DNA from: Thalassotalea nanhaiensis
Lineage (GTDB): Bacteria; Pseudomonadota; Gammaproteobacteria; Enterobacterales; Alteromonadaceae
Length of the DNA stretch: 64,000 nucleotides
Assembly: GCF_031583575.1 (NCBI RefSeq)
Contig: NZ_CP134146.1
Span: 4,154,001-4,218,000, forward strand
Reading direction: 5' to 3'
Shown: piece by piece, positions 11,229-58,384 of the stretch
How positions within the stretch are numbered: the first letter of the stretch is position 1
Layout: each line of letters starts with the position of its first letter
Made by a program: the position numbers and the translations under genes
Notes under the pieces: generated by a model
The model's database searches: none
Seen by the model: the letters and a program-made list of their open reading frames with translations, nothing else
Told to the model about the DNA's origin: nothing

Positions 11229-11236
11229 AGTTTGGC

Positions 11237-12370
11237 TTGAAAATAGTTATCGCTCCAGATTCATTTAAAGAAAGCTTAACCGCCTTAGAAGTTGCTCATG
11301 CTATTGAGGCAGGGTTTAAGCAAGTATTTCCCGATGCAAAGTACGTAAAGATACCAATGGCCGATGGCGGGGAAGGCACCGTACAGGCACTTGTCGATGC
11401 AACCAAGGGCAATATAGTGCGTACCTCGGTAAAGGGTCCTCTACATGCACAGGTTGATAGTTTTTATGGCATTTTAGGGGATGGTGAAACCGCAGTGATA
11501 GAAATGGCCGCTGCGTCTGGTTTACACCTAATTGATGAAAGTGAGAAGGATGCCAAACTTACTTGCAGTTATGGCACTGGACAACTCATTAATGATGCTT
11601 TGGATAAAGGCATTAGAAAATTTGTCATTGGCCTTGGAGGCAGTGCAACAAATGATGGTGGCGCTGGTATGTTAACTGCGCTTGGCGCTGTATTAACAGA
11701 TAGCAATGGTAAACAAATACCAGCAGGCGGAATACATCTTCATCGACTCAATCACATAGATCAAACCAACATTCACCCACAACTAAGCCGCGCGACATTT
11801 CTTGTAGCTTGCGACGTAAGTAACCCATTATGTGGTGATTACGGTGCAAGTGCAGTTTTTGGTTCACAAAAAGGTGCATCAAAAACAGACATCGCGGAGT
11901 TGGATAAAAATTTATTACACTTTGGTCAAAAATTAGAAGCCGTAAGTAAAAAAACTATCGTTAATTTTTCAGGTTCTGGCGCTGCAGGTGGCATGGGTGC
12001 AAGTTTATTAGCCATATGTAATGCGCAGCTGCAATCCGGAATAGAGCTAGTTACTAGCACCCTAGATTTAGCTGATAAAGTGAAAAACGCTGACTTAGTG
12101 ATAACAGGTGAAGGAAGGATTGATGGCCAATCGGTATTTGGTAAAACACCTGTTGGTGTTGCTAAAGTGGCTAAGCAGCACGATTGCGCTGTTATCGCAA
12201 TTTCCGGTTCGGTTACGGATGATTATGATGTGGTCTTTCAACATGGCATAGACGCTGTTTTTCCCATTATTTCCGAGCCTTGCAGCTTATCCGAAGCATT
12301 AGCAAAAGGCGCCATAAATATTAAACGTACAGCATTTAACATAGCTAACACGCTAAAGCTAAACAATTGA
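11237..12370 (+). CDS. Glycerate kinase (GlxK/GarK family)
   Basis: The enzyme phosphorylates D-glycerate, probably to 2-phosphoglycerate as in GarK/GlxK. The 377-residue protein has the family N-terminus KIVIAPDSFKESLTA, the MADGGEGTVQALVDAT motif, the GLGGSATNDGGAGML glycine-rich stretch, and VITGEGRIDGQSVFGKTP near the C-terminus. The start is a TTG at 11237: the conserved N-terminus begins exactly there and no ATG is available. It follows tex by 8 bases and is likely read from the same transcript, although no functional link to Tex is known. Confidence 0.93.
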   Translation: MKIVIAPDSFKESLTALEVAHAIEAGFKQVFPDAKYVKIPMADGGEGTVQALVDATKGNIVRTSVKGPLHAQVDSFYGILGDGETAVIEMAAASGLHLIDESEKDAKLTCSYGTGQLINDALDKGIRKFVIGLGGSATNDGGAGMLTALGAVLTDSNGKQIPAGGIHLHRLNHIDQTNIHPQLSRATFLVACDVSNPLCGDYGASAVFGSQKGASKTDIAELDKNLLHFGQKLEAVSKKTIVNFSGSGAAGGMGASLLAICNAQLQSGIELVTSTLDLADKVKNADLVITGEGRIDGQSVFGKTPVGVAKVAKQHDCAVIAISGSVTDDYDVVFQHGIDAVFPIISEPCSLSEALAKGAINIKRTAFNIANTLKLNN

Positions 12371-30626: not shown

Positions 30627-32885
30627 TTAATTTCGTGTATTAATAACAAACTTACTAAATTTCATTCCCTGATATGCTGAATGATCTGTGACTAAAAGCA
30701 AAACATCACTCCAGACTTGCAATTCTGCTAATGATAAACGTTCACATGCCCACTCCATAACTAATGGGTCATGGTATTTTACCTTGATACCTGAATTCAA
30801 GAGCTCTTGTAAAAGTGCATATGCTGGGGATTCTCTGCAATCATCAACATCAGCTTTGTATGCAACACCTAATATTCCGACCTTTCCCCCATTTATTTTT
30901 TTTAAATACTTCTTAACTTGGTCAGCGAAAACAACAGGACGATGGTCATTGATATGTCTTGCAAGGCGAACCAACTCTCCTGATTCGGTGTTTTCAATTA
31001 AAAACCAAGGATCTACAGGGATGCAATGCCCCCCCACACCTGGCCCAGGGGAGAGAACGTTCACTCGTGGATGTTTATTAGCAAGGTTTATTACGTGCTG
31101 AACATCCACTTCTAACTCATGGCAAATTTCAGCAAGTTCATTAGCAAAAGCAATATTTACATCTCTAGAGGTATTTTCTACTAGCTTTACGCATTCAGCA
31201 GTTGTTGTGTCAGTGATAAATATTTGGCCATTTGAAAATGTTTTATAAATATTTTTCACTAAATTAGCTGCTATTGAGTTTTCAGAGCCCACAACCCTAT
31301 CGTTATTTTTCAATTCAAACAGAGTATTCCCAGGAATTGCCCTTTCTGGACAATGTACGACATTTAACTCAAGGTTATGTTTAAGTAATTTACTTTGTAT
31401 TTCTTTTGAAGTTCCAGGGCTAATTGTCGATTCAATAATTAATGTTTGTCCATTTCTAGCGACCAAAACTAACTGCTCTATAGCTTTATTTAAAAAACTC
31501 AAGTCGCACTTATTTTCTAGCTGTGGCGTTGGCACTGCAAGTAGGTATGTGTTAGAGGATTTTAGTGTTGTTGTTGCGCGCAGAAATCCGGTAGATATTA
31601 CCTTTTGTAATAGCTTTTCTAAGCCCATTTCTTTATAAGGGCATTTTGAACTGTTGATCATATCAACTCTATCAGTACTAATATCAATGCCTTTTACTTG
31701 ATAACCTGCCTCTGCAAGCAAACAAGCTATGGGCAAGCCCATATAACCAAGGCCAATAACCGATATATCTTCATTTCTAGGTATTATATCTTCTGATTGA
31801 GGGAGTAATGACTTTTCCAAGATAGATATTATTCGACCTGCAACCTTGCCATCACCAAACGGGTTTTCCCATGAATAATTTTCATCATCCATCCATTTTT
31901 TCATCGCATTTAAAGCCAACTCTTTGTTTCTACCGACTAATACATTCGCGCCAACATTTACAGACTCAGGTCTCTCGGTATTTTCTCGAAGGGTTATACA
32001 AGGAACTCCAAGTAAACAAGCCTCTTCTTGAATACCTCCTGAATCAGTTAAGATCAATTTAGCGTGTTGTTGTAGCTGAATAAAATCAAAATAACCGATT
32101 GGTGGGGTTAGTAATAAAAAATCTGGTACTTTAAGGTCAAACTCTTTTAACTTACTAACTGTCCTTGGGTGTATAGGCCAAACAATTGGCTTAAAAAAAT
32201 GCTGGTGTAAATGTGTAAGTAAAACAAGTAATTCTTCTAGATGGGATTTAATGTCAACGTTAGAGGCACGGTGAGCAGTAATTAGAAAATACTCTCCTTT
32301 ATCCAGCTTCAAGCTCTCTAAAATACTACTATTATTCTGTGAAATTTCTAAATGTTGGAATAATGAATCGGAAACTGTATTGCCAACCGCATAAATTTTA
32401 TTATTTGAGATGCCTTCATCAATCAATATCGCTTCTTGCGCTGGTCCAACTGCAAATAAAAAATCACTGATGTGGTCGGTTAATATTCGATTTGTTTCTT
32501 CGGGCATCATCCGATCATAACTACGTAGTCCAGCTTCAATATGCCCAACCTTTATGTTCAGCTTTGATGCTGCTAAAGCGCCAGCAAGTACAGTATTAGT
32601 ATCTCCTTGTACTAAAACCACATCAGGTTTTTCTTTTACTAAAATTGGCTCCATTTTAATTAAAATATTACCGGTTTGATTGCTGTGTAATCCAGAGCCT
32701 ACATTTAAATTATAATCTTGCGTAGGTAGCTGTAACTCTTCAAAGAAAATTTTATCCATTTCTTCTGAATAATGCTGGTTAGAATGGATGATGAAAAAGG
32801 GGAGCAGGCGCTTTTGACACTCTCTTATCACCGGAGCCATTTTTATTATTTCGGGTCTGGTACCAACAACAATCCCTATTTTCAT
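30627..32885 (-). CDS. Bifunctional WecB-WecC fusion: UDP-GlcNAc 2-epimerase / UDP-ManNAc dehydrogenase
   Basis: One 752-residue frame contains two normally separate enzymes. Residues about 1-360 are a UDP-GlcNAc 2-epimerase (GIVVGTRPEIIKMAPVI, GHIEAGLRS, LTDSGGIQEEACLLGVP). Residues about 370-752 are a UDP-sugar 6-dehydrogenase of the WecC type: Rossmann loop SVIGLGYMGLPIA, catalytic C621 in GGHCIPVDPW, and GILGVAYKADVDDCRESPA. Together they would make UDP-ManNAc from UDP-GlcNAc and oxidise it to UDP-ManNAcA. The junction (SLLPQSEDIIPRNEDISVIG) is a short linker without an internal start that would suggest two proteins. A glycosyltransferase gene lies 26 bases upstream on the same strand. 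Confidence 0.92.
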   Translation of the reverse strand: MKIGIVVGTRPEIIKMAPVIRECQKRLLPFFIIHSNQHYSEEMDKIFFEELQLPTQDYNLNVGSGLHSNQTGNILIKMEPILVKEKPDVVLVQGDTNTVLAGALAASKLNIKVGHIEAGLRSYDRMMPEETNRILTDHISDFLFAVGPAQEAILIDEGISNNKIYAVGNTVSDSLFQHLEISQNNSSILESLKLDKGEYFLITAHRASNVDIKSHLEELLVLLTHLHQHFFKPIVWPIHPRTVSKLKEFDLKVPDFLLLTPPIGYFDFIQLQQHAKLILTDSGGIQEEACLLGVPCITLRENTERPESVNVGANVLVGRNKELALNAMKKWMDDENYSWENPFGDGKVAGRIISILEKSLLPQSEDIIPRNEDISVIGLGYMGLPIACLLAEAGYQVKGIDISTDRVDMINSSKCPYKEMGLEKLLQKVISTGFLRATTTLKSSNTYLLAVPTPQLENKCDLSFLNKAIEQLVLVARNGQTLIIESTISPGTSKEIQSKLLKHNLELNVVHCPERAIPGNTLFELKNNDRVVGSENSIAANLVKNIYKTFSNGQIFITDTTTAECVKLVENTSRDVNIAFANELAEICHELEVDVQHVINLANKHPRVNVLSPGPGVGGHCIPVDPWFLIENTESGELVRLARHINDHRPVVFADQVKKYLKKINGGKVGILGVAYKADVDDCRESPAYALLQELLNSGIKVKYHDPLVMEWACERLSLAELQVWSDVLLLVTDHSAYQGMKFSKFVINTRN

Positions 32886-44883: not shown

Positions 44884-45714
44884 GTGGTATTAATTTTGAA
44901 TAAATTTATTTTTTTAATTGGTGCAGCAAAAAGTGGTACAACACTGCTTGCGACAATATTAAATAAGCATCCTGAGATTTGTTTAAGCTCCCCGAAAGAA
45001 ACTAATTTTTTTACGAACAAATGTTATAAACCTAATAGTCATAAGACATATTTAAAAGCGTTTCACAAAAAGGAATGTAAATACTTATTAGATGCCTCGA
45101 CATCTTATTCTGCTGGTTGGAATCAAAGTTCAAAAAACATTGCGGAAAGAATTGCTAGACATTACCCACAAGCCATAATTATCTATATATTTAGAAACCC
45201 TGTAAAAAGAGCTTGGTCCTCGTATTGGCATGCGAGAAGAGTAGGTAGTGAAGTGCGTACACCTGATGAAGCCTTTAAAGATTTTAATAGCTCTCATATC
45301 CAGGCAAGCCTTTATTATGATCGATTGCAAGATTATTTAACATATTTTAAGAGAGAACAAATAACACTAATTTCTTTCGAAGACTTTATTCAGGATCCAG
45401 AAAAACATACAAATCAGATTTTAAAAAAAATAAAACTTGATAAGATTAATATCTCAAAGTCAGAGCTAACAAAAAAAGTTAATAAATCCTATAGATGGAG
45501 AAAAAAAACAAGCTATTTAAACAAAATACCAATTAAATATTTAAAATCTATAAACAAATACCTAACATTATTTTTGCCTGTATTCATTCACCAATTAATT
45601 AAAAATATCGTTAGCAAAGAAATTCCTAGAATAGATCCCATCAATAAGGATTACCTAGAATCTCAACTGTTAGATAAATATGAGATGTTTTTAACTGAAT
45701 TATCTAATGGTTAA
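44884..45714 (+). CDS. Sulfotransferase (PAPS-dependent)
   Basis: The 276-residue protein has the 5'-phosphosulfate loop FLIGAAKSGTTLLATIL near the N-terminus and the 3'-phosphate-binding motif YIFRNPVKRAWSSYWH. SPKETNFF and ISFEDFIQDPEKH are also typical. It would transfer sulfate from PAPS to a sugar of the EPS, probably in the cytoplasm. The start is a GTG at 44884, with TTG 44896 as an alternative. The gene is markedly A-rich compared with the backbone genes, and overlaps the next gene by eight bases. Confidence 0.88.
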   Translation: MVLILNKFIFLIGAAKSGTTLLATILNKHPEICLSSPKETNFFTNKCYKPNSHKTYLKAFHKKECKYLLDASTSYSAGWNQSSKNIAERIARHYPQAIIIYIFRNPVKRAWSSYWHARRVGSEVRTPDEAFKDFNSSHIQASLYYDRLQDYLTYFKREQITLISFEDFIQDPEKHTNQILKKIKLDKINISKSELTKKVNKSYRWRKKTSYLNKIPIKYLKSINKYLTLFLPVFIHQLIKNIVSKEIPRIDPINKDYLESQLLDKYEMFLTELSNG

Positions 45715-46534
45715 TATTAAGAAAACAACTCAGTCGGTTTCGAATGCGAGTAAGTTAATAAAACCCATATTTCAGCGTTTTTTTTATCCAAAAGGATATG
45801 AAAAATGTTTAATCATTATGGGGTGCCAGAGATCCGGTACAACTATTATATCTCGGGTTTTCGATCGCATTTTATATGCAAAAGTGTTTGGTGAGTTTAG
45901 TATTTTATCTATTGATGATCCTAATAGAATTAGATTGAACAATATTAATAATGTCATCGCTCAAGTACAAAAGAGTCACAGTCCATTAATTGTTTTAAAA
46001 CCATTAGTTGAAAGCCATAAGGCGAACCTCCTATTGAGCCAAATACAAAATGCTTGCGTTTTATGGGTATTTAGACATTACTTAGATGTTGGTTTATCTG
46101 ACATTAAGAAATTCTCTAAAAATCCTGGACATAGCAATTTATTACCTATTATAAATAAAGATAAGAATAATTGGAGATGTGAAAATATTTCACATAAAAC
46201 CACTTCAATTATTAATTCCCTTTATTCCAAAGACTTATCGCCTTTAGATTGCGCCTGTTTATTTTGGTATGTAAGAAATATACTGTTCTTTGAGCAAAGC
46301 TTAGATACTAATAGCAAGGTTTTCCTCTGGGATTATGACAAATTTGTCCAAGATCCATCGCAACACATTAAAGATCTACTAACAAAGATGTCATTACCGA
46401 CTGTACCTAAAAAAATAACACAAGATGTATTTATCAATACTATCAATAGAAACCAAAAAATTAACAGCAATATTAAAGAACTTTGTGATGATTTGTTTGA
46501 TCGCTTGTCACTTCACACCAAATCCCTTAAATGA
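45707..46534 (+). CDS. Sulfotransferase-like protein
   Basis: The 275-residue protein has its own P-loop-like 5' motif CLIIMGCQRSGTTIISRVFD and a 3'-type motif VFRHYLDVGLSDIKKF. VFLWDYDKFVQDPSQHI near the C-terminus is a common sulfotransferase motif. Because it has a separate PAPS site, it is a second enzyme and not a broken half of the preceding gene. Its last 27 bases overlap the convergent flippase gene. Confidence 0.82.
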   Translation: MVNIKKTTQSVSNASKLIKPIFQRFFYPKGYEKCLIIMGCQRSGTTIISRVFDRILYAKVFGEFSILSIDDPNRIRLNNINNVIAQVQKSHSPLIVLKPLVESHKANLLLSQIQNACVLWVFRHYLDVGLSDIKKFSKNPGHSNLLPIINKDKNNWRCENISHKTTSIINSLYSKDLSPLDCACLFWYVRNILFFEQSLDTNSKVFLWDYDKFVQDPSQHIKDLLTKMSLPTVPKKITQDVFINTINRNQKINSNIKELCDDLFDRLSLHTKSLK

Positions 46535-47947
46535 GACCTTTAATTTAATTAAATCATCAAAGTAATAATAAAAATAGGTAATTGAAATAAAAATGGTTCC
46601 AATAATCACTTTTATAATTAAAGAAATTATCGGAAGAGTATTCGATAAGAAAAAATGATTCACACAATAAACAATAAACATCATAAGTATCGAAGTCATT
46701 AAAGGAGAAAATCGACTTAATAAATAACGTCTATCAAGCTTGAATTTATTGGCTAAGTTAAGAGTATTAATTACAAAAGCTATAGAAAAGCCTATAAGCC
46801 AAGCCCAAGCGGTAGAGATTAGTCCAAATTGCACTCCAATTGAAATTGAAATAATCAAAATAGTAGCTGTGATACTGGTATTAACAAGAGCAAAATTAGC
46901 TTTCCCCATAGCATTAGCAAAATTTTGAAATAATGAGTTAATCATTCTAAATGGAAGAATAACCGCTAAAATAGATATTATTGCTGCCGTTCCGTGCCAA
47001 TTCGAACCTAAAATCACTTTTTGAATTTCTTCTGCAACAACTGAAATTCCAAAAAATACTGGAAATATCAAAAGTGACATTACCCTTATAGCTTGGTATA
47101 GATAATATTTTGCATCATTGTTAGAGCCACTTATACTTACAAACGCTGAAAATCCAACCTGATTTAATATGGATGATGCTTTATTCATAGGCATTGCAGC
47201 GATTTCATTTGCAACATTATATAAACCTAGAGAATTAGTGCCTAAGAATTTTCCAATAATTAAGCTGTCTAATTTATTATAAACAAACCAAATTATTCCA
47301 TTTAGCTGCATTTTAAGAGCAAAATTTAGAATTGGTTTCACCAATGAAAAATTGAAAGTTATGCCATAAGCAGTTTTCTTAAAGTAATTTATCGATATTA
47401 CGGAGGCTAAAATCTGAACGATTCGTGCGATAACGAGAGACCAAAAACCATAACCCAACAAAGCAAAAGTCAATGCCGTAAATATGGATGAGAATGACGA
47501 TATGATCTCACTATAGGCCTGTAATTTAAAATTCATCTCTTTTTGGATGTAAGCATTGGGAACAACATTGAAACTAAGTAATGGCGTAAAAATAGCCATC
47601 ACATATAAAACGTATTCAATTTCATTGTTTTTAAAAAATACAGCAATATCCTTTGCAAAAAAAGAAATGAGCAAGCTATACAGAAAATACATAAAAAGTG
47701 AAATAGTGAAAATTTGCCTGGCGGCTTGGGTCGTTATATTTTTCATTTTCACAAGAGCAGAAACAAAGCCGTTTACTGCAAAGATACTAATAAAAGCAAA
47801 GAAAACAGTTACTAAAGCAACTACCCCATAATCGGCAGGAGTTAATAGTCTAATGACCCAAAAAGTGACTATCCAAGAAATAGTCTGAGAACAAAATTTG
47901 GATAAAAAAGACCATTTCAATCCATGCAATACTTTAGCTTTAAGCAT
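46508..47947 (-). CDS. Wzx/MOP-family polysaccharide flippase
   Basis: The 479-residue membrane protein has about 14 predicted helices and the WzxC/MviN-type pattern: LHGLKWSFLSKFCSQTISWI, RLLTPADYGVVALVTVF, and YNKLDSLIIGKFLGTNSLGLYNVA, the conserved lipopolysaccharide-flippase segment. It should move the undecaprenyl-linked repeat unit across the inner membrane. It is the last gene of the xrtA operon, joined to the upstream sulfotransferase by a one-base TAATG overlap. Confidence 0.92.
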   Translation of the reverse strand: MLKAKVLHGLKWSFLSKFCSQTISWIVTFWVIRLLTPADYGVVALVTVFFAFISIFAVNGFVSALVKMKNITTQAARQIFTISLFMYFLYSLLISFFAKDIAVFFKNNEIEYVLYVMAIFTPLLSFNVVPNAYIQKEMNFKLQAYSEIISSFSSIFTALTFALLGYGFWSLVIARIVQILASVISINYFKKTAYGITFNFSLVKPILNFALKMQLNGIIWFVYNKLDSLIIGKFLGTNSLGLYNVANEIAAMPMNKASSILNQVGFSAFVSISGSNNDAKYYLYQAIRVMSLLIFPVFFGISVVAEEIQKVILGSNWHGTAAIISILAVILPFRMINSLFQNFANAMGKANFALVNTSITATILIISISIGVQFGLISTAWAWLIGFSIAFVINTLNLANKFKLDRRYLLSRFSPLMTSILMMFIVYCVNHFFLSNTLPIISLIIKVIIGTIFISITYFYYYFDDLIKLKVSFKGFGVK

Positions 47948-48879
47948 TAGATAGCTTTATTAAAAATAGAATGAAAAAACTCCTTTAATTTTTTTAATAC
48001 AAATTTAATAGGCCATATTAATAAATAAAGTGAAATCCAAACTCTATCCCAATATGATAAAGCTATGTCGCTGTGATAACCAAAATATTCCATTTCATTT
48101 TTTGCAATATAATGAAATATTTTCTTCCTATTGAGTGACCAATTAGAGAATCGATTTAAAGGATCAAATTTATTTTCTTTCGATACGGGCTTCCAATGCA
48201 TTGCTTTTGAAGAAGACTTTAAGTCTGAAGAACCTGAAACAGGCAATGACTTTAACTTACTAAAGTCAAAGTCATTTAAAGATAAGCCTAAATACTCAAT
48301 CATTTTTTTGAATTGATTTTCAGGCTCTACAATTAAATTTTCAAATTTTATTAACAAAAATGTATCAAAGTTTATATCATTCATTTTTTTAAATTTTTTA
48401 ATCTTCTTTGCGTTAAGTTTCCATTGAATCGCTGCCAGTTCGAAATCCCAAGAAAAAGATTTTTCTCCTGAAGCCACAACAGACCTTCCATCTCTCATGA
48501 TCATAATAAATTTGCAATTTTTAAAAAAAAGACTGTATTTATCAATGCCTTTGAGTGAAGGGGTTTTAGATATAATATATTCAATTTCATTTTTAGGATT
48601 AGAGTTTTTGACTTGTAATTTTAAAAAATCCTGTATCCCCTGACCTAAACATTGCATTAATAAATCCTTATGATTAGTTTCTGCATTTCTAAACCAATAA
48701 GGATCCCAGTTATTGGAAACTCTCTGGGAATATCTAAAAAGAATATCTAATTGAGAAATAACAAAATCTTCCCAAACTGGTCCAGGGGCGTAGCAACTTG
48801 TGTGTAACCTCAGCATATTTTGTAAAAAATTGGTTCCACACCTTGGCATAACACCCAAAACAAAGCATACCTTCAACAT
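47947..48879 (-). CDS. Sulfotransferase-family protein
   Basis: The 310-residue protein has a 5' motif with unusual residues, FVLGVMPRCGTNFLQNML (Cys where Ser is usual, Asn for Thr), and a clear 3' motif IMIMRDGRSVVASGEKSF. FLLIKFENLIVEPENQF is a usual sulfotransferase region. It is encoded within the xrtA operon, between the small Tat protein and the flippase. The altered loop may change donor or acceptor preference; activity is unproven. Confidence 0.82.
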   Translation of the reverse strand: MLKVCFVLGVMPRCGTNFLQNMLRLHTSCYAPGPVWEDFVISQLDILFRYSQRVSNNWDPYWFRNAETNHKDLLMQCLGQGIQDFLKLQVKNSNPKNEIEYIISKTPSLKGIDKYSLFFKNCKFIMIMRDGRSVVASGEKSFSWDFELAAIQWKLNAKKIKKFKKMNDINFDTFLLIKFENLIVEPENQFKKMIEYLGLSLNDFDFSKLKSLPVSGSSDLKSSSKAMHWKPVSKENKFDPLNRFSNWSLNRKKIFHYIAKNEMEYFGYHSDIALSYWDRVWISLYLLIWPIKFVLKKLKEFFHSIFNKAI

Positions 48880-48908: not shown

Positions 48909-49253
48909 TTAAATTTCAGCAATTAATTTATAACCTAATGCAGCTAAAACAATAGATTCAGTTTCACTCAAAACAAGCCCCTTATAACTTACAGTTCTAG
49001 ATTCTTGAAAATCTCTCTTAATTAACTTTTCATAATCACTTTGAGCTTTAAAGGGTACTTTCAAAAGTTGACCTTTTAGATCAATGGTCCCTGTATTATT
49101 TAATTTCCACCAATGATAGAAATCTATAAAATAAGTTCGTTTATCATCGGGTATATTATGTAAAAAATCAGAAAAAAGATGAACGGGAAGTAAAGTTGAA
49201 AAAAAAGTCATACCACTATACTTTACAAATATTCGTCTAGACTTATTTTCCAA
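48909..49253 (-). CDS. Small Tat-signal protein, possible partner subunit of the GMC oxidoreductase
   Basis: The 114-residue protein begins ENKSRRIFVKYSGMTFFSTL, a twin-arginine signal (SRRIFVK) followed by a moderate hydrophobic stretch. The remainder (YFIDFYHWWKLNNTGTIDLK, LVLSETESIVLAALG) has no clear motif. Its gene overlaps the GMC oxidoreductase by 11 bases. In gluconate, sorbitol and fructose dehydrogenases, a small Tat-signal subunit carries a signal-less flavoprotein across the membrane. The arrangement here is the same, so I infer a chaperone/subunit role. Confidence 0.7.
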   Translation of the reverse strand: MENKSRRIFVKYSGMTFFSTLLPVHLFSDFLHNIPDDKRTYFIDFYHWWKLNNTGTIDLKGQLLKVPFKAQSDYEKLIKRDFQESRTVSYKGLVLSETESIVLAALGYKLIAEI

Positions 49254-50835
49254 AATATTTAACCTTTAAAAGTTTTGCTAATCTGATAGACAAACTAACA
49301 ATGGTAAGAGTAGGAGGTACATGACCCCCTGTTGGAAATACTGAACTTCCACCAATATATAAATTTTCAGTTCCGAAGACTTTATGATTTTTATCTACCA
49401 CACCATCTGTTTCATTATTTGCCATACGCGTTGTTCCCATATGATGATTTCCAAATCCAATTTGATCATTGAAAATACGCTCGCTTCTTTCTTTAAGTAA
49501 ACGGACTCGTCCTATAGAATTTGTCCCAACTTCGTTAGCAAATATCGTTAAAGATTTCCAAATATTATTAATATCTGAGCTTTTTAATTCCCAATGAATA
49601 TTTATTTTAGGTATTCCAAAAACATCAACTTCATTGCCAAGACAAATCTTATTATCCCTATGGGGTGTTTGCTCAATCATCATTGGGATCTGAAACCCTG
49701 CCATTTGTTTAGATGAATCAAATAAAGAATGATCAAACGATTTTCTAGAAATAGCTTCTGCTACCATGTCAAAGTCTAGTACAAAGTTTAATAAATGATC
49801 GGGTAATTGATCCGGAAACTCACCTTCCTGTAAGGCATCTTTTAAAATATGAAATGATGATATACCATCAGAAAGCATATATTCGGTCGACTTAACTAGA
49901 GGTAACCGTAGGTTAGTAGTCAAGTTATCTTTTAAAGATCGCTCACTTAGCTGAAAATAACTCAAAATACGTCTATCATATTCATTTACCCCAGAAAATA
50001 AGGGAAAATCACTTAAACTATTAGAGAACAACTGAGCTCCCTTAACTGTCGGGTGATCCATAAAGTACCGTCCTACATTTCCAGTTATATTTCCCAATTT
50101 ATTCTGATATTTATCATTAAAAAATAGAAGCATTCTCGCATTTTCTATCCCACCTAAACAAAGAACAAAGTCGTTTGCTGAAACCGAAAAATTGTCAGCC
50201 TGTAAAGCGTTGAATGAAAGATTAGAAACTTTTTTGTTTTCTAAAGAATATTCCATATCTACTAGATTAGCATTTTTAATAAGGTGTATTTTAGAAGAAT
50301 TAATTAATTGAGTTGCGTTACTCAAATAAAAGTTTGTAGGCGGTTGAGCAGCCTTAGCTATGCCTATTTCAAGTGCTGAACCCTGTATCCCCCAATCTTT
50401 TTGATGATATTTTTTCATCCACTTATCTGGTAAAAAGCCATCATTTCCTACACCACAATAAGTCGAAGCTTTGTAATAGTAGGGCTCAATGTCATCAAAA
50501 GAAATAGGCCAACCACTGTTAGGTATCCAGTTTCTATATTCAAAGTCAATAGGGGAAAGTGGTGACGTATTATTTGCCCAATGGTTACTCGCTCCTCCTA
50601 AAAACCTTAATCTTGAAATCAATGGATCAGGAAAGTGCTCTGGGAACGACTCAGCCTGATAGAGTTGTTGAGTTTTATCAACATAATGGTCACTTCCTGA
50701 TTCAACAAGAACAATTTTTGAAAAAAAAGGCTCTAATTCCAATGCTAAAACTATCCCAGCGGGCCCTGCTCCAACTATGCATATATCAGCTTCTATCTGA
50801 CTTCCTGCAATTAATGATTTTCCATCACTTATCAT
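49243..50835 (-). CDS. GMC-family FAD-dependent oxidoreductase
   Basis: The 530-residue protein starts near the FAD dinucleotide motif ADICIVGAGPAGIVLALEL and has the GMC signatures LGGASNHWANNT and NHHMGTTRMANN. C-terminal SSVFPTGGHVPPTLTIV follows the family pattern, except that the usual NPTLTI reads PPTLTI, so the Asn of the active-site His/Asn pair appears replaced by Pro. No signal peptide is visible. It would oxidise an alcohol group of a sugar or lipid-linked glycan. I use the ATG at 50835. It sits between the O-antigen-ligase-like and Tat genes in the xrtA operon. Confidence 0.85.
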   Translation of the reverse strand: MISDGKSLIAGSQIEADICIVGAGPAGIVLALELEPFFSKIVLVESGSDHYVDKTQQLYQAESFPEHFPDPLISRLRFLGGASNHWANNTSPLSPIDFEYRNWIPNSGWPISFDDIEPYYYKASTYCGVGNDGFLPDKWMKKYHQKDWGIQGSALEIGIAKAAQPPTNFYLSNATQLINSSKIHLIKNANLVDMEYSLENKKVSNLSFNALQADNFSVSANDFVLCLGGIENARMLLFFNDKYQNKLGNITGNVGRYFMDHPTVKGAQLFSNSLSDFPLFSGVNEYDRRILSYFQLSERSLKDNLTTNLRLPLVKSTEYMLSDGISSFHILKDALQEGEFPDQLPDHLLNFVLDFDMVAEAISRKSFDHSLFDSSKQMAGFQIPMMIEQTPHRDNKICLGNEVDVFGIPKINIHWELKSSDINNIWKSLTIFANEVGTNSIGRVRLLKERSERIFNDQIGFGNHHMGTTRMANNETDGVVDKNHKVFGTENLYIGGSSVFPTGGHVPPTLTIVSLSIRLAKLLKVKYFGK

Positions 50836-52135
50836 TAATCTGAACCTTAGAATAGCTCTTAATATGGTCACTTATTAACGTAATCAATGCCATCAACCAA
50901 ATAGTGACCTCTAAAACTTTATTGTTTGTTCCTTGACCTGCAATTTGAAGTAATAAAAGTGATAATGTAGTAGCAAGTAGCATCACACTATAGAAAAAAT
51001 CATCTTTATTCACTTCACAATTATTTTTAATTACATTAATTTTTAAGAATAAAATTAAAATCAAATAAAAATAAATTGTAGCCCCTATCAACCCGTGATC
51101 AACAAGCATGCTCATTGCTAGATTGTGTGACGCTCTGATTGATGCATTATTATTCTGTGCAGTTGGTTTAGTGAGGAATTCTTCCTGAAGATATAATGGG
51201 CTTAAAAGTAAAGTCCCCCTATTCCCATATCCTATTATTGGCCTCTCTTTGAACATTGAAAGCTGAGCTTTAATAACCTCAATTCTAGATAAAGCACTCC
51301 GGTCAATTTTTGGTTGAAAAACACTACTTTCATTACTACTAATTTGCTCGAACCTTTGAATGATTTGAGGCCCTAAAAGAGAAAAAAATAGAATTCCTCC
51401 TAAAGAAAGGTAGATTATGAATTGTTTTTTTACATCTCTAGGAATATAAAAAAGAGAAAACAATGCAATACAAAATAGTGATATTAAAACCGTTCGGCTT
51501 TCTGTTTGCATAATGATTTCAAGTAAAATGATTACCAATGGAATTAGTAACCAATTCAATTTTTTCAAATTACACAATAATAAATAAGAGCTTAAAATGA
51601 GAATCACTGCAACATGCTGAGCTATAAGGTTCGCACTAGCAATGCTTGCCCCCCCAACACCTTCTAACCTCCCACTAGTATTAATTAGACCTAGATACCC
51701 AAAGTAAGTGCATCCAATTGCATTTATTAAAATAAAAAATATCAATTCCCCTTTATTCGTTATGCAGTTTCTTATTAGAACAAATAAGAGTATAAATTTT
51801 AAAAATAATTCGATATATCGAAGATGTAAGTAAAAATCTATAGCCCAAAACATTTGTAAACAGATATAACACCAAAATAGCAGTAATAATTTACTTTCTT
51901 TATTATCAAGCCAATCTATTTTGAGTTTTGAGTTAAAAATTAAAGCTATAAAAGTGATTACAGCTGCAATCAGAGACCAACGAAAATCTGGTAATTCAAC
52001 TCCCCACCAACGACTAGGAGGGTGCATATAAAAAGCTACAAAATAAGAAAATAGCCCCCAAAGGGGTTTACTTGTGAAAGCTTTAATTAAGCCCATCACA
52101 TATAAAAATATGAAAATCAAAGCACTTATGCTCAT
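50825..52135 (-). CDS. O-antigen ligase/polymerase-like membrane protein, XrtA-associated
   Basis: The 436-residue protein has about 10-12 membrane helices and the Wzy/WaaL-type large loop with QTESRTVLISLFCIALFSLF and RASHNLAMSMLVDHGLIGA. The YFVAFYMHPPSRWWGVELPD entry is like the exosortase-A-associated 'O-glycosylation ligase' group (TIGR03097, from memory). It may polymerise the repeat unit or transfer it to PEP-CTERM proteins. It overlaps the upstream glycosyltransferase by four bases and the GMC gene by 11. Confidence 0.88.
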   Translation of the reverse strand: MSISALIFIFLYVMGLIKAFTSKPLWGLFSYFVAFYMHPPSRWWGVELPDFRWSLIAAVITFIALIFNSKLKIDWLDNKESKLLLLFWCYICLQMFWAIDFYLHLRYIELFLKFILLFVLIRNCITNKGELIFFILINAIGCTYFGYLGLINTSGRLEGVGGASIASANLIAQHVAVILILSSYLLLCNLKKLNWLLIPLVIILLEIIMQTESRTVLISLFCIALFSLFYIPRDVKKQFIIYLSLGGILFFSLLGPQIIQRFEQISSNESSVFQPKIDRSALSRIEVIKAQLSMFKERPIIGYGNRGTLLLSPLYLQEEFLTKPTAQNNNASIRASHNLAMSMLVDHGLIGATIYFYLILILFLKINVIKNNCEVNKDDFFYSVMLLATTLSLLLLQIAGQGTNNKVLEVTIWLMALITLISDHIKSYSKVQINDK

Positions 52136-53274
52136 TCAATATCTCTTGGTTTATTTTCAATAATATTCACAATATTCTTTGTATTTTCCTGCCATATGAA
52201 GCTATTTCGATTAAGACTCTCTCGCCCTTCAAACCTTTTATTAATCAAAGTATTAAACTTTTCTACAGCACAATTAAGTTTAACTACAAAATCAGATTTC
52301 ACATTTTTATTAAAAAGCAATGCAGATTCATCTGTTAATATTTCTTTTATATTGTCGCAATCTGGTGCAATGATTAAACAACCTACTGCCATGTATTCAA
52401 ACAGTTTGAGAGGTGAAGCGTAGTGAGTAACATTCGGCTGTAAAGCGATATCAAATTGCTTTATTTGTTCGAGTGTTTGCTTACGATTTAACAGGCCTGT
52501 AAAAATTACTTTTTCTTTTATGCCAAGGTTTTCAGCCTGTTGTTTAAGTTCTGGCAATATATCGCCATCACCTATACAAATTAATTTTAGTGATTTTTTT
52601 TTGTGCTTTGCTATAGCTTCTATGGCTTTGTCTAAGCCATGCCAACGGTGAATAAAACCAACAAAACCTATAATTATTTCTTCTTTATCTTCATGGCTTG
52701 TTATTGGTGTAAGGCTTTCAAGAAAGTGCTTATTTACACCATTATGGATAACTGTAATGTTTTTTTCTTTAACGCCAGCCTTTATTAAGTAGTCCGCCAG
52801 CACTCTACTTACCGGCAAAGTATGTGTTGCATTTTGCCATGTATAGCGTTCTATTTTTGTAGCTAGCCAGGTTAATGCTAATCCTGAATATTTACGTCGT
52901 TCATAAACAAGTGGTGCATTAACTTCTAGCATGATCGGGATATTGAATAGCTTGCTTGCCCAAATTCCTGCCGGTTGATAAAGGTTGTAGCGTTCATAGA
53001 TAAAATCAGGTTTAAATGTTTTAATCGCTACGGCTAATTTGATAAAAATCCAAATTGAATAGCTAAGTTCAAGCATTTCATATAGTGCTTGAGGGAGGAG
53101 TTTTTTTAACTTTGTTACAATGCCCCCATCATGACCAAACTTAGTCTTTTGGTTTATTGAAGGAGCAACAAATATCAATTCGTGACCCTGCTCTATAAAT
53201 GCATTTGAGAGCTCTTCAACATGAACATATTGTCCATCTTTTGATGCTATTCGATGATGATAGAGTATTTTCAT
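52132..53274 (-). CDS. Glycosyltransferase family 4, XrtA-locus type
   Basis: The 380-residue protein starts KILYHHRIASKDGQYVHVEE, as in exosortase-A-associated GT4 enzymes, and contains TVIHNGVNKHFLESLTP and the donor motif DIALQPNVTHYASPLKLFEYMA. It overlaps both neighbours by four bases, a typical operon arrangement. It would extend the lipid-linked sugar chain on the cytoplasmic side. Confidence 0.9.
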   Translation of the reverse strand: MKILYHHRIASKDGQYVHVEELSNAFIEQGHELIFVAPSINQKTKFGHDGGIVTKLKKLLPQALYEMLELSYSIWIFIKLAVAIKTFKPDFIYERYNLYQPAGIWASKLFNIPIMLEVNAPLVYERRKYSGLALTWLATKIERYTWQNATHTLPVSRVLADYLIKAGVKEKNITVIHNGVNKHFLESLTPITSHEDKEEIIIGFVGFIHRWHGLDKAIEAIAKHKKKSLKLICIGDGDILPELKQQAENLGIKEKVIFTGLLNRKQTLEQIKQFDIALQPNVTHYASPLKLFEYMAVGCLIIAPDCDNIKEILTDESALLFNKNVKSDFVVKLNCAVEKFNTLINKRFEGRESLNRNSFIWQENTKNIVNIIENKPRDIE

Positions 53275-55175
53275 AAACTTTCTTCTTTACTCAAGAAGGC
53301 TTCAAAGATTAGCAGTGCCCATATGAATACACCGTGATTCTGTTGTCTATTTTGGTGTTCCTCAATTAAAGACTTAACTTGACTAATATTGAAAATATCA
53401 GCATTTACAAAAGCATTAGTGAATATTTTATTCTCTAATGTTTCTATTGGAATCTGTCTCATCCACTCATCTAATGGTGAAGTGAAACTCATCTTTTTTC
53501 GTTCTAAAACAAACTCTGGGACTAATCCTTTTAATGATTTGACTAAAACTTGTTTTACTTTGCTACCTCTTAAATTGAGTTTAGGTGCTAAACCAAGTCC
53601 CCATTCCACAATTTTATGATCTAGAAATGGTACTCTTACTTCTAAAGAATTAGCCATACTTGCTCGGTCAGCTTTGGTCAAAATATCTCCAGGGAGATAG
53701 GTTTTAAAATCGATATATTGTATTTGTTTCAGTGTAGGTAAATGATTTACTTGCTTAGCTAATAATTTAAATTCATCCTCTGAGCTGTAACCTGCAAGTT
53801 TTTCTTTAAATTGATAGGAATAAACTTGCTGTAGCAGTTCTGAATTGATTATAGACATTGCGCGATGAAAACTAGTTATCGGGTTATTCACCAAGGCTTG
53901 GAAAGTAGATTTTGCACGTAAAAAACGAGGTGCTCTATCAAGTTTAGGGTATATTTTTGCTAAGAAACTAAAAAATGGTTTGCGAATAAAGCCAGGTATA
54001 ACACCTCTAAATCGCTCTTCCAATTGCAGCATTTGATAATTTCTATAGCCTAAAAAGAGTTCATCACTACCGTCACCAGAGAGCGCAACTTTTACTTTTT
54101 CTCTAGTCGTTTTACTTAATATCAAAGTTGGGATTGCGGAATTATCAGCAAAAGGCTCATCAAAAACATCTATTACGTTAGCAACTAACGATAAGTCATT
54201 TACTGAAACGTTGGTTTCAAAGTGAGTAGTATTGAAATATTTAGCAACTTGCTCTGCATAATAAGATTCATCATATTTTAATAAGTCAAAGCCTATTGAG
54301 CAGGTTGTTACAGGCTCTGGCTTTATTTGACTGATCAATGCAACTAACGCCGAAGAGTCAACACCGCCGGACAGAAAAACGCCTAATGGCACATCAGCTA
54401 TAAGATGCTTTTTAATTGCCTCATTTAACTTTAACTGAACCGTTTCTTGATCAAAATTTTGACTATCTACATTTATATAATCGAGTGGGTCCCAATAGCA
54501 TTTATTTATTAATTGCTCAGGTTTGTTTTGATCTAATAAAATGTAATGCCCAGGTAAAATCTTATATATTGATTTATAAATAGATTTTGGCTCAAGAATA
54601 TAGCCAAGAGAGAAATAGTCTTCTATAGCTTGCGAATTGAGAGCTAACGATATTTTATCGTTACATTTTAATGCCTTGATTTCTGAGGAGAATAAAAACG
54701 ATTGATCATCAGCCTTAGAGTAATGTAAAGGTTTGATACCCAACCTGTCTCGTGCAGCAAAGAGGTGTTTGTTCTTTTTATCCCATAGAACAAAAGCAAA
54801 CATACCCTGTAATTTTTTTACGCAATCAGCATGCCATTCGAGCCACGCATTTACAATAACTTCAGTGTCACTTTCAGTGTTAAATACATAGCCTTTTTCG
54901 CGCAGCTCGGCTCTTAATTCAATATAATTATATATCTCTCCATTAAAGGTTATACCAATAGTTTGAGTGTCGTCGAATAGAGGCTGTCTACCACCTTCAA
55001 TATCAATAATTGATAGCCTGGTATGTGCTAATGCTATGTTTTTATTTCCATCATCTTGCCAAATATTGCTATCATCCGGACCTCTGTGGTTCTGACTATT
55101 ATTCATTTTATTCAATAGCTTGAGATCTACCTCATATTGAATGTCATGATTAAAAATAGCCACAATCCCACACAT
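53271..55175 (-). CDS. XrtA/PEP-CTERM system amidotransferase (asparagine synthase-like)
   Basis: The 634-residue protein has Cys2 as nucleophile (MCGIVAIFN), the glutaminase motifs NHRGPDDSN and ITFNGEIYNYIELR, and the synthetase motifs LSGGVDSSALVALI and SGDGSDELFLGYRNY. Its position next to xrtA fits the exosortase-A amidotransferase family (TIGR03108, from memory). The likely job is amidation of a uronic acid in the repeat unit. A second family member at 42928 is encoded in another operon. Confidence 0.92.
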   Translation of the reverse strand: MCGIVAIFNHDIQYEVDLKLLNKMNNSQNHRGPDDSNIWQDDGNKNIALAHTRLSIIDIEGGRQPLFDDTQTIGITFNGEIYNYIELRAELREKGYVFNTESDTEVIVNAWLEWHADCVKKLQGMFAFVLWDKKNKHLFAARDRLGIKPLHYSKADDQSFLFSSEIKALKCNDKISLALNSQAIEDYFSLGYILEPKSIYKSIYKILPGHYILLDQNKPEQLINKCYWDPLDYINVDSQNFDQETVQLKLNEAIKKHLIADVPLGVFLSGGVDSSALVALISQIKPEPVTTCSIGFDLLKYDESYYAEQVAKYFNTTHFETNVSVNDLSLVANVIDVFDEPFADNSAIPTLILSKTTREKVKVALSGDGSDELFLGYRNYQMLQLEERFRGVIPGFIRKPFFSFLAKIYPKLDRAPRFLRAKSTFQALVNNPITSFHRAMSIINSELLQQVYSYQFKEKLAGYSSEDEFKLLAKQVNHLPTLKQIQYIDFKTYLPGDILTKADRASMANSLEVRVPFLDHKIVEWGLGLAPKLNLRGSKVKQVLVKSLKGLVPEFVLERKKMSFTSPLDEWMRQIPIETLENKIFTNAFVNADIFNISQVKSLIEEHQNRQQNHGVFIWALLIFEAFLSKEESL

Positions 55176-56010: not shown

Positions 56011-57501
56011 CTAGTTGGCATGATTCACCTCAACTAAAAGTAGTTCTTGTAAGTTATTTTGCATATATTTATCTAATGTTTCATTTGCACCCAACGAATT
56101 ATCCATTGATAAAATAAACGCTTTACCACCTAAGTCTGAGAAGGTTAATTTGTTATATAACTGCAACGCTTTTACGTGTAATTTATTCGCTAAAAATGAA
56201 TTGCCAACTTGATAAATAAGTCGAATTATTCTTTCTTTTCCTAATGAATTAACAATTAGAATCTGTTGATAAACAATCTGTTTTCCTGTTGCGAGTTCAA
56301 CCTCCCCATTCGATATATCACTAATAGTCCAAATTGTTTCATCAAAAAGTTTGTTCTGAAAACTAATCAATTCCTTACGATCAGTTTCAAAATAATAAGT
56401 TGCAGTAAACACATCTATAAAACTTCCTTTAGTGCTTACTTTTTTATAATCCAATGAATCAGCATGTGGAAAAGTTGGTTGCCATTGTAAAGGTGGGAAA
56501 TCCTTTTGTTTGCCATTATCGAGGGTAACTAATTCAGCTTTGATATCGTTTTCTTTTTGTTTATATATATAATTTAAAAATGGTCCAAAACTCATAAAAA
56601 TCAACGTTAAAAAGATAAACCAGTAAGAAGGAAAGTTTACGTTTTTCTTAAAGTTAGATTCTTTGATGTCATACTGAGGCAGTTCTTTATCAGATAAACG
56701 ATTTCCAATGACAAATAAAATTAATAAAATCACACAGAAGAAAAACCAACCATAAACCAAATGATCAAAGCCAACTGCAGCTTGCATGTCTGAAAGATAG
56801 CCTATTAGAATGATTAAAAAGGCCCTAATTCCATTTCCTACTATTGAGACAACAAAGCACAATGTTATGAACAGGGCTTTTTTCCAGAACCCCGTTAAAA
56901 ACAGGTAAGAATATAAAACCCCGATGGTCACTGTAGAAATTAAAAATCTTATCCCACTGCAGGCCTCTGAGACCACGAACTTCCCGTTAGGGATCTGTAT
57001 GTACATTCCATCTCTATAAATCGGAATGTTTAATATTTTAGTCAGTCCAACAGAGATATCAGCTGTGATAAATAATAAATAAGGGATCAGAAAGTCGCCA
57101 ACAGGAATTGCAAATAGCAGAAAGAACAAGGGAAATTTCAAGGTTTTAGTTAGATCTAGACCTAAAAGTGCTAAGCAGATAGATGTGGGGATTAAAAATA
57201 AAAAAAACTGTTCAACAATATTGATGCCTGAAAGGGTTCCTACAAACCACATAATAGAAATAATAAGAGTTAAAAATACTCCTAGCCAAGATGGCCCAAA
57301 TATAACTTCTTGTAGCTTATGCTTTTGTTGGTAAATCAGCCAAATTACTAAGGGAATAATAAAGAATCCATGGCTGTAGGTATTCGACTGAGTCCATGTA
57401 TTTAGGAGCTTTTGAAACGTTGAATAAAAGATACTTATATAAAAGCCTGAAAATATGGCTAATGCTACAAATAACTGCGGACGAATGGTTTTACTATCCA
57501 T
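56011..57501 (-). CDS. xrtA: Exosortase A with C-terminal EpsI domain
   Basis: XrtA is the inner-membrane transpeptidase-like enzyme that recognises and probably cleaves PEP-CTERM signals. The 496-residue protein has about eight membrane helices. The exosortase active-site residues are visible: C181 in VVSEACSGIRFL, R226 in VGNGIRAFLI and H247 in GFDHLVYGWF. The periplasmic C-terminal half (about 330-496) is the EpsI domain often fused to XrtA. The ATG at 57501 has GGGAG upstream and overlaps the deacetylase stop by eight bases. A substrate is encoded at 25134. Confidence 0.96.
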   Translation of the reverse strand: MDSKTIRPQLFVALAIFSGFYISIFYSTFQKLLNTWTQSNTYSHGFFIIPLVIWLIYQQKHKLQEVIFGPSWLGVFLTLIISIMWFVGTLSGINIVEQFFLFLIPTSICLALLGLDLTKTLKFPLFFLLFAIPVGDFLIPYLLFITADISVGLTKILNIPIYRDGMYIQIPNGKFVVSEACSGIRFLISTVTIGVLYSYLFLTGFWKKALFITLCFVVSIVGNGIRAFLIILIGYLSDMQAAVGFDHLVYGWFFFCVILLILFVIGNRLSDKELPQYDIKESNFKKNVNFPSYWFIFLTLIFMSFGPFLNYIYKQKENDIKAELVTLDNGKQKDFPPLQWQPTFPHADSLDYKKVSTKGSFIDVFTATYYFETDRKELISFQNKLFDETIWTISDISNGEVELATGKQIVYQQILIVNSLGKERIIRLIYQVGNSFLANKLHVKALQLYNKLTFSDLGGKAFILSMDNSLGANETLDKYMQNNLQELLLVEVNHAN

Positions 57502-58384
57502 CACAACTCCCAAGTATTACATCTTGCTTCGGATAAATTGGAAATGTTGAATTTGTAAGATAAACATCTTTCATTGTCGAAAAATTAAAATCTTGGATTA
57601 ACAAACGAAGCTTATTCTCCATCCGATTTAAATTCGTATAATGTCTAATTTTTGATAATAAAGGAGCGTTGCTTATGCGAGGTTGGTTAGGGTCAATCTC
57701 CCATGGGTGAAAATAAAAATTATATGGATGAGTTTCGTGCTGATGGTATGAATTAATCCTATTTTTTGAAAAAAAATAGGGATATAAACGAAAATAGCCG
57801 CCACCACCAATACCTACATTTTTATTACCCTTTTTGATAGTTGAAATTGGGATTTCTAATATGCCCTCTTTTCTAGAGTGAGGGAATCTCGGCCAGGATG
57901 GCTCTCCATATAAGTCATGACAAATAGGGTAGGTGCTCGAACTATATTTTATCCCCAATTCTGCCAATACTTGATAAGCCCATACTGTTGTTTCATTAAT
58001 AGAAAAACTCGGAGCTCTATAACCTAATATTTTATCGCCAATTATGTCTTCTATAGTAGATATGCTTCTTGAGACATCAAAAATATATTCATCTCGAGTT
58101 TGCTCTGTAATACGGGTATGTTCGAAGCCATGACTAGCAATTTCATGGCCTGAATTATGTATCGTGCGGATCAAATCTGGATATGCTCTGGCAACCCAGC
58201 CTAAAATAAAAAAAGTAGCTTTTACGTTATGCTGAGCGAACAAATTTAGGATCTTTTTAGTATTATATTCAACCGTAGGCTTTAATGTTTTCCAATCATT
58301 TTTATCTATGGTTTTGGCAAAAGCCGACACATGAAAATAATCTTCAACATCCACTGTCATAGCGTTTTTTACTTTAGCAGACAC
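57494..58384 (-). CDS. XrtA-associated polysaccharide deacetylase (DUF3473 type)
   Basis: The 296-residue protein begins KNAMTVDVEDYFHVSAFAK, the characteristic N-terminus of deacetylases in exosortase loci (TIGR03006, from memory). It contains the NodB core KATFFILGWVARAYPDL and SGHEIASHGFEHTRI, then YRAPSFSI and the C-terminal domain HPYNFYFHPWEID. It should remove acetyl groups from lipid-linked or nascent EPS. The start is a GTG at 58384, five bases after the sugar-transferase stop. Confidence 0.94.
   Translation of the reverse strand: MSAKVKNAMTVDVEDYFHVSAFAKTIDKNDWKTLKPTVEYNTKKILNLFAQHNVKATFFILGWVARAYPDLIRTIHNSGHEIASHGFEHTRITEQTRDEYIFDVSRSISTIEDIIGDKILGYRAPSFSINETTVWAYQVLAELGIKYSSSTYPICHDLYGEPSWPRFPHSRKEGILEIPISTIKKGNKNVGIGGGGYFRLYPYFFSKNRINSYHQHETHPYNFYFHPWEIDPNQPRISNAPLLSKIRHYTNLNRMENKLRLLIQDFNFSTMKDVYLTNSTFPIYPKQDVILGSCDG

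Follow-up and report, generated by a model that had tools for sequence, protein, structure and literature searches.

The window analysed here, 64,000 nucleotides of the complete 4.31 Mb genome of Thalassotalea nanhaiensis, contains, inside an exosortase A/EPS cluster, a gene for a GMC-family flavoprotein that lacks a signal peptide and, directly downstream, a gene for a small protein with a twin-arginine signal. On balance, the two proteins appear to form a FAD-dependent dehydrogenase of that cluster that acts on a sugar or glycan in the periplasm, the flavoprotein being the catalytic subunit and the small protein the export subunit. The small protein is a member of a real family for which there is no Pfam or NCBIfam model.

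The GMC gene (49243..50835, minus strand) starts with the ATG at 50835, terminates with the stop codon ending at 49243 and encodes 530 amino acids; no signal peptide was found in the N-terminus of the protein by sequence inspection. A match to GMC_oxred_C (PF05199, E 5e-18), a GAGPAG stretch near the N-terminus that corresponds to the dinucleotide-binding GxGxxG motif, and the catalytic histidine place this protein in the GMC oxidoreductase superfamily. The gene of the small partner (48909..49253, minus strand), with AAAGG 9 nt upstream of the TTG start codon at 49253 and a stop codon ending at 48909, encodes 114 amino acids; the twin-arginine motif, SRRIFVK, occupies residues 5-11 (49221..49241, minus strand), and no obvious signal-peptidase site is present. 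The GMC gene overlaps by 11 bases both with the ligase gene (50825-50835) and with the small gene (49243-49253). The preliminary description was accurate on the coordinates, the length of the small protein, the signal and the exact extent of both overlaps. Its claim that these are real operon members agrees with the recovery of the small protein by a held-out family HMM and by a whole-genome search (see below), as well as with the dN/dS values in two Colwellia MAGs, ~0.07 for the GMC gene and ~0.19 for the small gene, which indicate purifying selection on both. The nearest relatives of the window GMC protein are encoded in Colwellia MAGs.

The pair is embedded in an XrtA/PEP-CTERM exopolysaccharide system that is carried on the 25-64 kb part of the window, encodes PrsT, FemAB, XrtA, an XrtA-type deacetylase, an amidotransferase, a chain-length determinant, the priming transferase EpsB_2 and a PEP-CTERM protein, and agrees in these genes with the XrtA/PEP-CTERM EPS system described previously (PMC1569441; TIGR03109, TIGR03097, TIGR03006). 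The minus-strand genes are tightly packed from 58384 down to 46508. These include the genes for the XrtA-system polysaccharide deacetylase (57494..58384, minus strand; TIGR03006, 390 bits), exosortase XrtA with a C-terminal EpsI-like domain (56011..57513, minus strand; TIGR03109, 298 bits, where the cut-off is 208), the XrtA/PEP-CTERM system amidotransferase (53271..55175, minus strand; TIGR03108, 776 bits, slightly below the cut-off) and, upstream of and overlapping the GMC gene, a Wzy_C/PEP_O_lig-type O-glycosylation ligase (50825..52135, minus strand). Directly downstream of the small gene, the same operon contains a sulfotransferase gene (47947..48879, minus strand; Sulfotransfer_3, E 2.5e-17), followed by one for a Wzx-like flippase; glycosyltransferases, which like the flippase act on the cytoplasmic side, are encoded in the operon as well.

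Scanning the genome collection with a single sequence retrieved no relatives, and an alignment-based scan was needed; this search yielded 80 GMC loci, to which loci from relatives and plasmids were added. Likewise, with the window small protein as the sole query, nothing was retrieved from 60 relatives, because the small family is too divergent. However, when 7181 ORFs were searched with an HMM of the small family that was built without the window protein and its near relatives, the window protein was recovered with E 1e-5, and clear non-members set in at E ~0.1; in a whole-genome search with the family, the window protein is the sole hit below E 0.1. Members of the family were found, in MAGs or genomes, in Pseudomonadota, Bacteroidota, Myxococcota, Cyanobacteriota, Gemmatimonadota, Actinomycetota and Deinococcota. 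A pair of arginines lies near the N-terminus of 52 of the 58 small proteins, and an alignment of 52 members shows R6 and R7 in at least 90% of them. The proteins share the ending DFxxG-xV-xxxGWxLSxTEA, represented in the window protein by DFQESRTVSYKGLVLSETES (residues 81-100; 48954..49013, minus strand), for which a helix, a beta hairpin and a helix are predicted. Two members, L170 (1195-2580) and L171 (1468-2592), carry long C-terminal extensions on the small-family domain, and both genes still adjoin a GMC gene.

Comparisons with characterized proteins placed the small family in no known group. No family match was obtained when nine members were scanned against Pfam and NCBIfam, the window protein alone matched no Pfam, NCBIfam or PDB family, and a PDB sequence search with the family returned generic Tat signals only. 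The predicted structure of the window protein (pLDDT 82, pTM 0.69) combines helices with a beta hairpin (residues 87-96) and ends in a helix; with the signal helix as part of the query, Foldseek and VIA-align found nothing above Z 2.9. No cofactor motif was detected in the small protein. Two candidate relationships were tested with shallow and later deeper alignments and rejected. Gluconate 2-dehydrogenase subunit 3 (PF13618) is a small subunit that partners GMC dehydrogenases, and some members of that family carry an RR signal, but the present small family shows neither a Pfam match nor profile-profile similarity to it. Against 28 members of the FAD-SLDH family (PF12318), hhalign aligned only the RR stretch, and the mature part of the small protein scored a probability of 1%.

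The tight association of the small gene with the GMC gene holds far beyond the window. A small-family ORF lies directly upstream or downstream of the GMC gene in 60 of the 90 related loci. The two proteins are a pair conserved in many genomes, and the outcome that the preliminary description named as a refutation, a small protein unrelated in other genomes, was not borne out. In 369 gammaproteobacterial genomes, the small family produced 19 hits in 16 genomes, and 15 of the 16 clear intact hits adjoin a GMC gene; in G375, the small-family copy is unlinked, with a GMC gene elsewhere in the genome, whereas the hits in G215 and G503 are, respectively, broken by stops and probably spurious. The distance matrices of the GMC and small proteins are correlated (r 0.77, n=58, permutation maximum 0.20), as expected of co-inherited partners, which alone is no proof of contact. 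Taken together, the tight pairing and the correlated divergence point to a physical partnership.

The presence of the partner is associated with a particular histidine of the GMC protein. His85 (codon 50581..50583, minus strand) aligns exactly with the flavin-linked His105 of the FAD-glucose dehydrogenase of Burkholderia cepacia (BcGDH), the reported site of FAD attachment (PMC6719666). The equivalent of His85 is retained in 64 of the 65 GMC proteins with a partner versus 4 of the 35 without one. The four exceptions are L040, L143, L023 and L154. The L040 GMC protein (9854-11488), with no small partner in its locus, has an N-terminal RR stretch of its own, MNRRELITAWVAALFAT, which, judging from the sequence, is possibly a natural transfer of the signal onto the enzyme; in the genome of L143 (G375), the small partner is unlinked; and for L023 and L154, no explanation was found. 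On a tree of 100 GMC proteins, the partner label requires 8 changes and accordingly is clustered, so that the association with His85 is not phylogenetically independent; an independent-pairs test provided one usable pair only. As a separate observation, a set of Burkholderiaceae relatives (L030, L036, L064, L072, L075, L085 and L088) have no small partner and contain cysteine in place of His85; most of these GMC genes are located near the EPS-cluster genes Wza and CpsD, and those of L085 and L088 near CpsD only.

The distribution of export signals within the pair is that of a Tat hitchhiker system, a cofactor-containing enzyme without a signal and a partner with a twin-arginine signal: the GMC proteins begin with MIxDAR and have no signal, which resides in the small protein, and a TatC gene is present in the genome. 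Together with the conserved pairing and the natural exceptions, this arrangement makes export of the flavoprotein and the small protein as a complex likely.

The structural model of the GMC protein (pLDDT 94.6) matches GMC structures with Z 30-35. The closest solved fold is that of the fructose dehydrogenase (FDH) large subunit (Z 35.5, rmsd 4.3, 439 aligned residues, 22% identity), followed by the BcGDH alpha subunit (Z 32.7) and then by pyranose and glycoside oxidases; these best matches to the predicted model favour a sugar-type substrate, without pinpointing the substrate itself. The catalytic histidine, His464 (codon 49444..49446, minus strand; aligned with BcGDH His476), is invariant. 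The asparagine of the His/Asn catalytic pair (BcGDH Asn519) is replaced by Pro507 (codon 49315..49317, minus strand), a hallmark of the exosortase-associated clade to which the window protein belongs, whereas most other members of the pair family retain Asn at this position; hence, the chemistry in this clade may differ. Pyridoxine 4-oxidase presumably has a proline at the same position, for which a paper search gave no confirmation. The only cysteines of the window GMC protein, at 19, 127, 226 and 398, form no cluster for a 3Fe-4S center. No cytochrome c gene adjoins the window pair. Only in two distant lineages, L005 (3054-3728) and L078 (2282-2740), does a gene for a single-heme cytochrome c lie beside the pair; these cytochromes possibly are the electron acceptors, which fits a periplasmic dehydrogenase.

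Hitchhiker-type GMC dehydrogenases as such are already known (PMC6719666, PMC8630023), the large subunits of FDH and FAD-glucose dehydrogenase having hitchhiker small subunits (PMC6719666). The preliminary description held that the pair copies the layout of periplasmic sugar dehydrogenases, and this comparison stands in part: the fold is indeed nearest to FDH and FAD-glucose dehydrogenase, but the small subunit has no detectable homology to theirs and the 3Fe-4S cysteines are missing. FDH consists of three subunits and contains a triheme cytochrome. The closest match by Z is to the large subunit of the membrane-bound FDH of Gluconobacter japonicus (PDB 7w2j, 9jqa), which, apart from the low sequence identity, differs in that FDH oxidises a free sugar. 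BcGDH, a gamma-alpha-beta complex (PDB 6a2u; PMC6719666), resembles the window pair in combining a signal-less GMC subunit with a small subunit that bears an export signal, in the His105 and His476 positions, and in the overall fold. The two systems differ in the Asn519 to Pro507 replacement; in the 3Fe-4S center, which direct-electron-transfer FAD dehydrogenases of the BcGDH/FDH type bind through clustered cysteines of their catalytic subunit (PMC6719666); in the small subunits, which are not detectably homologous; and in that no multiheme cytochrome gene adjoins the window pair. The GmcA/GmcB system of verrucomicrobial methanotrophs (PMC8630023) also combines a large GMC protein with a small subunit said to be Tat-exported, but is assigned to short-chain alcohols.

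The window GMC protein falls within a clade of ten genomes with an SH-aLRT support of 99, namely, the window, two Colwellia MAGs, Paraglaciecola chathamensis, L016-L019, G404 and G362. All ten members have the small partner and the Pro507 signature, and in all ten a Wzy_C/PEP_O_lig-type ligase is encoded within 1.4 kb of the GMC gene, either upstream or downstream; with the same model, a PEP_O_lig-type ligase was found near the GMC gene in none of the 81 other loci. TIGR03097, the model of the exosortase A-associated O-glycosylation ligase, matches the clade ligases that were scanned, with scores that exceed the cut-off in some and fall short of it in others. XrtA-type exosortase hits are present in all ten clade genomes, although those in G362 and G575 are weak or partial. 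In six of these (G000, G570, G571, G127, G573 and G404), the XrtA hit is on the contig of the pair, within ~20 kb, contrary to the second refuting outcome of the preliminary description, a GMC gene never near xrtA; the other four clade genomes are fragmented.

Outside the clade, XrtA-type hits occur in 10 of 24 other GMC-bearing genomes that were examined, and beside the pair only in G576 (L078); in a separate lineage, Jannaschia (L011), the pair adjoins XrtD. Among 197 relatives, GMC hits were obtained in 5 and XrtA-type hits in 118, so that the pair is uncommon even where XrtA is widespread. Thus, the exosortase link is real for the window clade and for at least two further independent cases, and the pair is encoded together with xrtA in several lineages, as would be a component of the XrtA/PEP-CTERM system; it is not a rule for the pair family, most members of which lie outside exosortase loci, so that the placement given in the preliminary description applies to the clade of the window and fails for the majority of the family. 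The same description considered a GMC pair to be unreported in XrtA systems, and the open literature is in accord: the founding description of PEP-CTERM (PMC1569441) mentions no oxidoreductase or GMC gene, and we found no open-access paper in which 'GMC oxidoreductase' and 'exosortase' appear together. In the open literature, we found no description of the small-subunit family, its coupling to the PEP_O_lig-type ligase, or its placement in exosortase clusters.

Under the reading that we prefer, the GMC subunit would fold in the cytoplasm and bind FAD, probably covalently via His85; the small protein would then bind it, and the twin-arginine signal would take the folded complex through the Tat pore, with the flavoprotein as the hitchhiker, a role suggested by the distribution of signals, the conserved pairing and the natural exceptions. 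In the periplasm, the enzyme would oxidise a sugar hydroxyl of the glycan handled by the neighbouring ligase/polymerase, before, during or after transfer of the glycan to its acceptor, and pass the electrons to quinone or a c-type cytochrome; here, it is the conserved gene neighbourhood and the fold that point to periplasmic glycan oxidation. A sugar or glycan is the probable substrate class, whereas the chances that the substrate is the cluster's own polymer seem evenly balanced. The preliminary description put forward a glycan or a polyprenyl-linked alcohol as the putative substrate in the periplasm. Weighing against the preferred reading are the TTG start and the missing signal-peptidase site of the small protein, the lack of a cytochrome c gene beside the window pair, the proline at the catalytic Asn position, the phylogenetic clustering of the His85 association, the location of most of the pair family outside exosortase loci and the rarity of the pair among XrtA-bearing relatives. 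More tentatively, the exosortase A clusters of this clade might contain a dedicated module of a ligase, an exported GMC enzyme and a Tat carrier that oxidises a surface glycan in the periplasm, installing carbonyls that would alter or cross-link the polymer, or alter or cross-link the attachment of the polymer to PEP-CTERM proteins. If this three-gene module is real, it includes a carrier family unrelated by sequence to the known GMC hitchhiker subunits. More generally, the occurrence of the pair in exosortase clusters suggests that exopolysaccharide or PEP-CTERM maturation includes an oxidation step in the periplasm, and naming the small family could enable annotation pipelines to identify GMC enzymes that are exported but at present appear to be cytoplasmic.

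Other explanations of the pair differ in the substrate or in the location of the enzyme. A Tat-exported two-subunit dehydrogenase could oxidise free sugars or alcohols for respiration and owe its place in the EPS cluster solely to regulation or history, given that the known hitchhiker-type enzymes, BcGDH and FDH as well as GmcA/GmcB (PMC8630023), act on small substrates, that the pair family is mostly found outside EPS clusters, and that two loci have a cytochrome c gene next to the pair. We regard this as rather unlikely for the window pair: the ligase, GMC and small genes stay together in ten genomes despite differing gene orders, and the presence of XrtA-type hits in every clade genome exceeds the expectation for a catabolic passenger. 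It is improbable that the enzyme stays in the cytoplasm or at the inner leaflet, with the N-terminus of the small protein serving as a membrane anchor, and oxidises intermediates linked to a lipid or nucleotide before they are flipped. The RR pair, which is conserved family-wide, would be superfluous in an anchor, the partnerless L040 enzyme has its own RR signal, and a cytochrome c gene lies beside the pair in two distant members, even if the hydrophobic stretch that follows SRR has no clear cleavage site and the glycosyltransferases and flippase of the operon work on the cytoplasmic side. Finally, we give very little credence to the small protein being a maturation or electron-transfer subunit that is exported alone, with no carrier function and with the GMC protein working elsewhere; its fold matches no known hitchhiker (in a model that includes the signal helix) and profile comparison with known small subunits aligns the RR stretch only, but it lacks a cofactor motif, its close pairing with the GMC protein and the correlated divergence of the two speak for physical partnership, and known hitchhiker systems likewise combine a signal-less GMC protein with a partner that is exported (PMC6719666).

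Several other features of the cluster were observed. Three sulfotransferase-family occurrences were detected (44884-46534, plus strand, and 47947-48879, minus strand), which suggests that the cluster polymer is sulfated; in L078 and L011, too, sulfotransferases are encoded next to the GMC pair. Two asparagine-synthase-like amidotransferases related to TIGR03108 (42928-44802 and 53271-55175, minus strand) are encoded in this single XrtA cluster. Finally, one ORF of 752 amino acids (30627-32885, minus strand) encodes a WecB-type UDP-GlcNAc 2-epimerase (1-358) fused to a WecC-kind nucleotide-sugar dehydrogenase (372-746), enzymes that usually are products of separate genes.
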